From the NCBI GenBank assembly GCA_021849045.1, contig JAJZTK010000014.1:1-43092 (forward strand): a stretch of 43,092 bases of DNA, in the 5' to 3' direction. Shown piece by piece: positions 35,075 through 37,527 of the stretch; the first letter of the stretch is position 1, and each line of letters begins with the position of its first letter. The DNA is from Deltaproteobacteria bacterium. GTDB lineage: Bacteria; Desulfobacterota; Desulfuromonadia; Geobacterales; DSM-12255. The notes below the pieces were generated by a model. The model saw nothing but the letters and a program-made list of their open reading frames with translations. It did not search any database and was not told the DNA's origin. A program made the position numbers and the translations under genes.

Positions 35075-35845
35075 ATGTCGTTGCTTGCAGGAAAAAAAGC
35101 CTTGATCGTCGGCGTCGCCAACGAAAAGAGCATTGCCTGGGGAATTGCCGAGGCATTCAAGCGGGAAGGAGCGTCCATAGCCCTTTTCTATGCCGGCGAG
35201 ACCCTGGCGAAACGGGTCATCCCGCTGGGTGAAAGTATCGGCGCCGACCTCATCGTTCCCTGCGACGTACGCAGCGACGAGGAGATCGCCAAGGCCATGG
35301 AGATGGTGAAGGAAAAATGGGGTGGTCTGGACATTCTCATCCACTCGGTGGCCTTTGCCAACAAGGATGAGTTGAAAGGCTCCTTCCTGAATGTCACCCG
35401 CGAAGGGTTTGCCACCGCCATGGAGGTGAGCGTCTTTTCGCTCATCGCCCTGGCCAAGGCGGCGGCCCCGCTCATGGAAGGACGAGAGGCGAGCATGCTG
35501 ACCCTCACCTACTACGGTGGCCAGCGGGTTTTCCCCAACTATAACATAATGGGAGTGGCCAAGGCCGCCCTGGAAATGAGCGTCCGCTACATGGCCGAAG
35601 CGGTCGGCCCCAGCGGGATCAGAGCCAACGCCATCTCCGCCGGGCCGTTGAAAACACTGGCCGCCGCCGGCGTCGGCGGGTTCAACCAGATCGCCGGCAT
35701 CGTCGAAGGAAAAGCGCCGCTCCGTCGCAACATCACCAAGGAAGAGGTCGCCAACGCAGCTGTTTATCTCAGCAGCCGGTTGGCCAGTGGCGTGACCGGC
35801 GAGGTGCATTTCGTGGACAACGGGTATAATATCATCGGGCTGTAA
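35075..35845 (+). CDS. fabI: Enoyl-[acyl-carrier-protein] reductase (NADH)
   Basis: Last step of fatty-acid elongation: reduces trans-2-enoyl-ACP. The 256-residue SDR has the FabI-type cofactor motif IVGVANEKSIAWGIAEAF, HSVAFANKDELKG, and active-site residues Y146, Y156 and K163 in TYYGGQRVFPNY and NIMGVAKAALEMS, at the same numbers as in E. coli FabI, followed by AISAGPLKTLAAAGV. The ATG at 35075 has AAGGAGGGG upstream; the in-frame extension to 35015 is rejected. hflX follows after 23 nt, so the two are probably co-transcribed. Confidence 0.96.
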   Translation: MSLLAGKKALIVGVANEKSIAWGIAEAFKREGASIALFYAGETLAKRVIPLGESIGADLIVPCDVRSDEEIAKAMEMVKEKWGGLDILIHSVAFANKDELKGSFLNVTREGFATAMEVSVFSLIALAKAAAPLMEGREASMLTLTYYGGQRVFPNYNIMGVAKAALEMSVRYMAEAVGPSGIRANAISAGPLKTLAAAGVGGFNQIAGIVEGKAPLRRNITKEEVANAAVYLSSRLASGVTGEVHFVDNGYNIIGL

Positions 35846-35868
35846 CTTCAGGAGCGAGGAGAAAACCC

Positions 35869-37527
35869 ATAAAACAGCTCCACGGCAACCTTACCGGCCT
35901 CAAACCCAGCCAGATCAACTCCCTCGAACGGCTTTTCCGACGCCGTATCCCGCCGAGCGAGGTCGTCACCCTGGATCTGGCGCGGGCACTCCTGGCCATC
36001 TCCCATGAAACCGGCCGCCAAATCGGTATCCTGGTGAACCGGGTGGGGGAAGTGGAATATGTCATCGTCGGCGATGAGCGCAGCATCTTCATCCCCGAAC
36101 TCCCCGATTATCCTCTTGGCAGGAAACTGCTGCGCGGCCTGCGACTCCTCCATACCCACCTGAAGGGTGAGGCGCTGAACGACGACGACCTGACCGACCT
36201 GGCACTGCTCCGCTTCGATCTGCTGGCGGCCATCAGCACACCGGCCCCAGACCTGCCGCCGGTAATCCAGCTTGCCCACCTGATCGTCCCCGGAAGCGGC
36301 CAGCATCCGTACCGGGTGGAACAGATCACCCCCCTTGCCCGCCTCAGCCTGAATCTCCAGGAGTTCCTGGAAAATCTGGAAAAGGAGCTGGCCACCGGAG
36401 CCTCCGCCAGCAGGGAGATTGCCGGCAGCGAGGAGCGGGGGATACTGATCTCCGTCACCCGGCAGACCCACGAAGAGGCAATCGATTCCATCGAGGAGTT
36501 GAAGGAACTGGCCCGCACCGCCAATGTGGCGGTCCTGGACACGGTCATCCAGCACCCGCGGCAGTTCTCCCCCCGCTACCTCATGGGCGAGGGAAAGATG
36601 CGGGACGTGGTGATCCGGGCACTGCAGCTCGGGGCAACCATGCTTATCTTCGATCAGGAGCTCACCCCGGCCCAGGTTCGCTCCATTTCGGAGATGACCG
36701 AGCTGAAGGTCATCGACCGGAGCCAGCTGATCCTGGACATCTTCGCCCGCCGGGCCACCACCCAGGACGGCAAGGTTCAGGTGGAGCTGGCCCAACTCAA
36801 GTACCTCCTGCCACGGTTGGTGGGACGCGGTGTGCAGATGTCCCGCCTGATGGGAGGGATCGGTGGGCGCGGCCCCGGCGAGACCAAGCTGGAAATGGAC
36901 CGTCGCCGCATCCGCGACCGGATCGCCCGCCTGGAGAAGGACCTGCGGGAGCTTTCCCGCGGCCGCTATCAGCGCCGCCAGCGGCGGATCAGGGCCGGCA
37001 TCCCCATCGTCTCCATCGTTGGCTACACCAATGCCGGCAAATCCACGCTCCTCAACGCCCTGACCGCAAGCGACGTCTTCACCGAAAACCTGCTTTTCGC
37101 CACCCTGGACACGTCAACCCGCCGGCTCCGGTTCCCGCGAGAACGGGAAGTGATCATCACCGACACGGTCGGGTTCATCCGCTCCCTCCCCAAGTCCCTG
37201 CTGGGCGCCTTCAAGGCCACCCTGGAGGAGCTGCGGGACGCAGACCTCCTGCTGCACCTGGTGGACTGCGCCAACCCCCGCTTTGCCGAACAGATCGGGC
37301 AGGTGGAGGCCATCCTCGCCGAACTGGAGCTGGCCGACAAACCACGCCTCCTGGTCTTCAACAAGGCCGATCTGCTCCCGGAACTGAAAAAACAGTTCCC
37401 CCTGGCTGTCGTGAAGATCCGCCAGGTGGCCCGCCAGACCGGGGCTATCCTGGTGGCCGCCAACGAACGGGATAGCCTGGGACCGCTGCTCAATGAAATG
37501 GAGCGGCGGTTCTGGCCACGGAAATAG
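35869..37527 (+). CDS. hflX: Ribosome-associated GTPase HflX (apparent AUA start)
   Basis: GTPase that splits stalled ribosomes. Features: GGIGGRGPGETKLEMDRRRI before the G domain, P-loop GYTNAGKST (about 385), DTVGFIRSLP and NKADLLP. The first standard in-frame start is GTG at 36034, but coding-like sequence continues 55 codons upstream (KQLHGNLTGLKPSQINSLER, then FRRRIPPSEVV), with GC-rich third positions and no ATG, GTG or TTG. GAGGAG at 35856-35861 is 7 nt from an ATA at 35869, exactly where a start belongs. Either AUA is used, or the base is a recent mutation or sequence error. Full length would be 552 residues. It follows fabI by 23 nt. Confidence 0.88.
   Translation: MKQLHGNLTGLKPSQINSLERLFRRRIPPSEVVTLDLARALLAISHETGRQIGILVNRVGEVEYVIVGDERSIFIPELPDYPLGRKLLRGLRLLHTHLKGEALNDDDLTDLALLRFDLLAAISTPAPDLPPVIQLAHLIVPGSGQHPYRVEQITPLARLSLNLQEFLENLEKELATGASASREIAGSEERGILISVTRQTHEEAIDSIEELKELARTANVAVLDTVIQHPRQFSPRYLMGEGKMRDVVIRALQLGATMLIFDQELTPAQVRSISEMTELKVIDRSQLILDIFARRATTQDGKVQVELAQLKYLLPRLVGRGVQMSRLMGGIGGRGPGETKLEMDRRRIRDRIARLEKDLRELSRGRYQRRQRRIRAGIPIVSIVGYTNAGKSTLLNALTASDVFTENLLFATLDTSTRRLRFPREREVIITDTVGFIRSLPKSLLGAFKATLEELRDADLLLHLVDCANPRFAEQIGQVEAILAELELADKPRLLVFNKADLLPELKKQFPLAVVKIRQVARQTGAILVAANERDSLGPLLNEMERRFWPRK

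Follow-up and report, generated by a model that had tools for sequence, protein, structure and literature searches.

Evidence for an ancient AUA/AUC/AUU start codon behind a strong Shine-Dalgarno sequence in long-form hflX

Introduction

Where does translation of hflX begin when a long, coding-like stretch of DNA precedes the first canonical codon of its frame? The question was raised by a locus in the window, by which we mean the whole stretch of DNA analysed here (43,092 nucleotides, from a Deltaproteobacteria bacterium), for which a preliminary description had proposed that hflX starts at AUA. The textbook case of a regulated non-AUG start is infC, and few such starts have, to our knowledge, been characterised in bacteria. 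Among the matches listed from the open PMC literature, we found no paper linking hflX to an AUU start, to a non-AUG start, or to IF3 or infC, which does not imply absence from print.

Results

The hflX locus of the window

The features of the locus, together with the infC loci used for comparison, are given below (coordinates, strand, description).

35075..35845, +: gene for a fabI-like enoyl-ACP reductase, directly 5' of hflX, with an ATG start and a Shine-Dalgarno (SD) sequence; control gene
35856..35861, +: SD sequence GAGGAG, read directly, ending 7 nt 5' of ATA
35869..35871, +: AUA start codon of hflX (near certain); ATA, ATC or ATT at this place in all order genomes with a usable 5' end
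35869..36438, +: N-terminal domain of HflX, residues 1-190, with an AlphaFold2 model, structure matches and conserved residues; no Pfam family found
35869..37527, +: long form of hflX, encoding 552 aa that comprise the N-terminal domain and the HflX GTPase (TIGR03156, Pfam)
36034..36036, +: GTG, first canonical in-frame codon, not the start; GTG in 8/77 loci
G000:C263 (L207), L112-L141 and L208: infC loci of the order, all ATA

The upstream gene is named fabI-like by resemblance. Bases 35856-35880 were read directly as GAGGAG AAAACCC ATA AAA CAG CTC. The hflX frame is open from the ATA at 35869 to the stop at 37527, giving a product of 552 residues, and its first in-frame ATG, GTG or TTG is the GTG at 36034, which lies 55 codons after ATA. 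Both the strong SD sequence seen earlier 7 nt before an in-frame ATA and the run of 55 codons devoid of a canonical codon were therefore borne out by the letters themselves.

Over residues 191-547, the product scored 438.8 bits with TIGR03156 (GTPase HflX), whose curated cut-off is 216.75, and it matched the Pfam families GTP-bdg_N, GTP-bdg_M and MMR_HSR1. The 55 codons following ATA translate to IKQLHGNLTGLKPSQINSLERLFRRRIPPSEV..., and relatives could be aligned from residue 1 onwards; G6, G10, L11, S45 and R50 were invariant among 18 diverse aligned sequences, in agreement with the preliminary description, which had called these codons coding-like. By DNA search, the site is single-copy in its own genome (a draft of 271 contigs).

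Start codon class across relatives

To describe the start position across genomes, codons were grouped as ATH (ATA, ATC or ATT; AUH in RNA) or canonical (ATG, GTG or TTG). The search of the order Geobacterales covered 97 genomes, from which G012 and G092, having weak matches only, were left out. In the 95 genomes with a usable 5' end, hflX carried ATC in 44, ATT in 27 and ATA in 24, and a canonical codon in none.

A draft assembly such as that of the window could carry an assembly or sequencing error at 35869-35871. Against this, the closest relative found, Geobacter argillaceus ATCC BAA-1139 (L032/L003; 97% identical), has the same ATA start, and several of the 95 genomes, all of them with ATH, are single-contig assemblies. 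Because ATA is shared with G. argillaceus and ATH is general in these genomes, we take ATA to be neither a read error nor chance, and an error at this codon is vanishingly unlikely.

The comparison was then widened. A profile search with the N-terminal domain found long-form hflX in 183 of the 247 genomes of the window's phylum, and in 106/118, 29/99 and 71/77 genomes of the phyla of G337, G338 and G339, respectively. These three phyla are probably the Nitrospira group (G337; locus L090), one including Pyrinomonadaceae (G338; locus L107) and, as the data suggest, Myxococcota (G339; locus L103). Pyrinomonadaceae are presumably an acidobacterial family. In the window's phylum, 110 loci were read from the 183 matching genomes (30 returned and 80 picked across families) and 107 were kept; in the other three, the best-scoring 30 loci each were read, of which 29, 28 and 27 were kept, so that weak-scoring members are under-sampled. 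Three loci (L072, L097 and L101) lacked a 5' end. Merging identical stretches around the start left 328 loci, and exclusion of two rows classed as "other" left 326 in four phylum-level groups.

Of these 326 loci, 275 had ATH and 51 had canonical codons only; the AUH start can thus be absent, which counts against the explanation proposed below. ATH and canonical loci numbered, respectively, 69 and 0 in the order search, 60 and 7 in the scan of named genomes, 86 and 20 in the phylum sample, 28 and 1 in the G337 phylum, 26 and 2 in the G338 phylum, and 6 and 21 in the G339 phylum. The last is a clear exception, with 21 of its 27 loci canonical and hflX starting mainly at TTG or ATG. In its loci L381-L408, TTG was often accompanied by an SD sequence, and ATG mostly stood without a clear one; at L103/L321, hflX possibly starts at ACG. 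In several of the loci L365-L376 (G338 phylum), the ATH codon seemed to be shifted upstream by one or two residues, with S, P or A as the next residue. The hflX gene of E. coli, which encodes a related GTPase core, has an annotated TTG start and a CDS of 1281 bases, and falls in the canonical class; its product presumably lacks the long N-terminal domain.

Most of the ATH loci (232 of 275) were strict, in that no canonical codon occurred between 12 codons upstream (or a nearer stop) and 3 codons downstream. The other 43 were mixed, with a nearby canonical codon upstream only (32), downstream only (10) or on both sides (1); in 40 of these 43, the stronger SD sequence belonged to the ATH codon. 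Judged by alignment, several phyla have kept the class of the hflX start, which is AUA, AUC or AUU but not AUG, and this start appears to be ancient. Aligning the N-termini of relatives, as had been suggested earlier, thus placed an AUH codon at residue 1 throughout the order. The preliminary description was right about the start, but did not recognise it as a trait that is conserved in several phyla rather than an oddity of a single genome.

Residue 1 as the start of HflX

An isoleucine codon could also be kept at this place if residue 1 were internal to a protein that starts upstream. The third base does drift as that of a synonymous site would, 19 of the 95 order rows fail the test of having an upstream stop in view with no canonical codon in between, and a canonical codon lies upstream in 33 of the 43 mixed rows. 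The other 76 order rows pass that test, however, and an in-frame stop was found upstream within 1, 2, 6, 10 and 20 codons in 5, 21, 81, 129 and 176 of the 232 strict rows, respectively. Because a stop lies within six codons in 81 of these rows, residue 1 cannot be internal there; in six rows the stop directly precedes the first ATH candidate. Moreover, the codons that an upstream extension would need are occupied by the letters of the SD sequence at a fixed spacing. ATA made up a larger share of starts (17/76) than of Ile codons in the interior of these genes (264/2577), which is modest evidence, the p-value of 0.0015 being overstated since related sequences were counted as independent. We consider an internal isoleucine at 35869 very improbable.

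What favours a start at the GTG at 36034, or at another codon downstream, is that no canonical codon precedes this GTG in the hflX frame. Of 77 loci, however, only 8, that of the window among them, have GTG at the equivalent position (residue 56), the others having GTC, ATC, GTT, GTA or further codons. In the 182 strict rows that had a downstream canonical codon, the nearest lay at a median distance of 26 codons. In addition, the residues that precede the GTG are conserved and are predicted to form helices at 13-24 and 35-48 and most of a strand at 52-57 (mean pLDDT 92), so that a protein starting there would lack both helices and the greater part of the strand, much as had been anticipated for its N-terminal region. 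A downstream start is thus hardly credible.

Sequencing error, internal isoleucine and downstream GTG were all rejected, given the ATH codons of relatives, the upstream stops and the conserved N-terminus. With relatives keeping AUA, AUC or AUU behind a strong SD sequence, and many of them having an in-frame stop shortly upstream, AUA is by far the best reading of the hflX start in the window and, as far as sequences can tell, a near certain one.

The N-terminal domain of long-form HflX

The domain that begins at AUA was modelled by AlphaFold2 with a mean pLDDT of 92.2. A Pfam search found no family for it, and a sequence search found no credible solved relatives. In structure comparison, the top VIA rows were JAMM/MPN proteins, with Pyrococcus JAMM1 at Z 7.9 (rmsd 3.1, 108 aligned) and RadC at Z 6.5, values in a range (under 8) in which, by the tool's own warning, a match can mean a common arrangement. 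The best Foldseek match had an E-value of 4.5e-3, with none at 0.001, and unrelated folds were also among the matches.

Over 208 rows, H95 was conserved in 206, H97 in 200, S, T or N at 104 in 203 and D107 in 206, forming a near-JAMM pattern, HTH-X6-(S/T/N)-XX-D. Position 47 provided a candidate acidic residue (149 rows with E and 46 with D among the 208). The JAMM/MPN+ motif is given as EXnH(S/T)HX7SXXD (PMC300881); the domain does not show it exactly, the spacing being X6 rather than X7. Among the matches listed from open PMC papers, none placed hflX in the JAMM/MPN literature. The domain may have a JAB/MPN-like fold, the match being suggestive only.

infC and control genes

We then compared hflX with infC, read in the best 30 genomes returned of the 58 searched, plus G000 and G001. 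It started with ATA behind a strong SD sequence in all 32 of these order loci, in 28 of them without a nearby canonical codon. In the wider set, infC was located by motif in 48 of 60 genomes (12 were dropped), and the candidate with the best SD sequence was ATH in 44 of the 48. The exceptions were G596 (GTG), G123 and G195 (ATG), and G295, in which GTG and ATA tied. At L518 (G123) and L521 (G195), where the best infC candidate was ATG, hflX was canonical too.

Among located genomes with a canonical hflX, the best infC candidate was still ATH in 22 of 25 (counted by eye, and leaving out G219, which is labelled canonical in the infC set and mixed in the start classification). Because of these 22 genomes, hflX and infC do not appear to switch together, and a joint loss of AUH by the two genes was rejected.

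The control genes appear not to share the non-AUG trait. All 69 distinct fabI loci had a canonical codon no more than four codons away from the aligned start. For frr and lepA (29/29 each), one was found between -12 and +5 codons, a loose test given the range of 18 codons. For the response regulator gene downstream of hflX, the start was readable in two loci only, both ATG. Three features of the infC class were found at hflX, namely a fixed residue encoded by a codon other than ATG, GTG or TTG, a strong and well-spaced SD sequence, and a non-AUG infC in the same genomes.

Shine-Dalgarno strength and changes of the start codon

In the 129 loci of the order search and the named-genome scan, G, G, A and G occupied positions -11 to -8 in 82, 85, 64 and 78%, respectively. 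The same loci had C at -2 in 74% and AAA as second codon in 85-91% per base (35867 and 35872-35874 in the window).

Taking the best SD energy in rows with several candidates, on both sides of the comparison, the median duplex energy was -8.5 kcal/mol for ATH loci (n = 275) versus -4.1 kcal/mol for canonical loci (n = 51). Canonical medians were -2.8 for ATG (n = 29), -7.4 for TTG (n = 19) and -4.2 kcal/mol for GTG (n = 3). Exclusion of the G339 phylum gave -8.4 (n = 269) versus -3.15 kcal/mol (n = 30). This contrast has modest support, from few independent switches: over five independent supported pairs, an average of 4.5 went in the same direction and 0.0 in the opposite one (a handful of the 200 pairings had a single opposite pair), with a median sign-test p of 0.0625. 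A weak start codon appears to pair with a strong SD sequence, and ATG with a weak one, as if their product were kept low. In a tree of 208 N-terminal domains, the third base changed within A, C and T at least 46 times, a number that weak branches can inflate (81 of 205 inner branches in this quick tree), and ATH and canonical codons were exchanged eight times.

These data bear on the main rival to an IF3-sensitive start, namely that AUH does no more than fix HflX output at a constant low level (a role proposed for the start of pcnB), without any sensing of IF3 or of ribosomal subunits. The weak SD sequences of the ATG loci look as if selection kept low output alone, and the independent switching of infC and hflX fits this as well. 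If constant low output were all that is selected, however, ATG with a weak SD sequence should arise often, and the tree needs only those eight switches beside the many changes within ATH; a fitness valley could also explain why switches between ATH and canonical codons are rare. We judge constant low output to have somewhat less than an even chance of being the full account.

Discussion

Our best explanation of the whole is that the AUA start throttles hflX, in an IF3-sensitive manner that is coupled to the pool of ribosomal subunits, and we regard it as probable. The initiator tRNA would read the AUA at 35869 as fMet, and the strong, well-spaced SD sequence would keep the 30S subunit on the hflX start. 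With the AUA-CAU mismatch, IF3 would reject most initiation complexes, and HflX would be made at a low, IF3-sensitive rate. When IF3 is short relative to 30S, both IF3 and HflX would be expected to rise, because IF3 binds free 30S and infC also starts with AUA; HflX would be coupled to the subunit pool because the ribosome splitter rises together with IF3. Within this explanation, throttling by the AUH codon is likely, and we would give sensing of IF3 by the hflX start an even chance at best. Tentatively, and with more doubt than belief, one may go further and see in infC and long-form hflX an ancient start-codon regulon of several phyla, in which the balance of free 30S and IF3 would be read through the escape of AUH starts from IF3 rejection, raising IF3 and HflX.

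Known systems offer parallels. IF3 represses the non-AUG starts of infC and sigR (PMC5472188). HflX proteins from other bacteria are known to split 70S ribosomes, and do so under stress; IF3 keeps free 30S separate from 50S (PMC9067457). In S. aureus, where infC itself starts with AUA, AUU and AUA starts with an extended SD sequence yielded about 10% of what AUG did in poor medium; in rich medium, the non-AUG start of ccpN reached up to 30% (PMC13009471).

On the best reading, hflX is a further gene that is throttled by starting at a codon other than AUG, alongside infC, pcnB, sigR, ccpN and cvfC1. As in infC, an AUH start is combined with a strong SD sequence in distant bacteria, infC of the window's genome, like that of 31 relatives, having ATA; in contrast to infC, the product of hflX is not the sensing factor, so that control would be cross-regulation rather than IF3 autocontrol. 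The AUU start of pcnB likewise limits a chromosomal gene through its inefficiency, but is described for E. coli (as cited in PMC1780047 and PMC13009471); in hflX, the trait has been retained across several phyla, and the codon itself shifts between AUA, AUC and AUU. In Staphylococcus, ccpN (AUA) and cvfC1 (AUU) likewise combine a conserved non-AUG codon with an SD sequence that is strong and extended; they are other genes, with conservation among Staphylococci or shared by S. aureus and B. subtilis, and their output was measured (PMC13009471), whereas the case for hflX is comparative only. The start of sigR, also a non-AUG and IF3-sensitive start of a stress gene, differs in being GUC (GTC), in belonging to Streptomyces and in having been demonstrated experimentally (PMC5472188).

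Regulated non-AUG starts are known as a kind; hflX adds a member to them that is notable both for how deeply the start is conserved and for which gene it is. Gene finders restricted to ATG, GTG and TTG would place the start of HflX wrongly here, at a cost of tens of residues of the N-terminal domain. The AUH start suggests that HflX output is deliberately kept low, perhaps in connection with the availability of free ribosomal subunits. If true, a second translation-factor gene whose AUH start persists in several phyla, with SD strength traded against the codon, would extend control by IF3 from autoregulation to a ribosome splitter.
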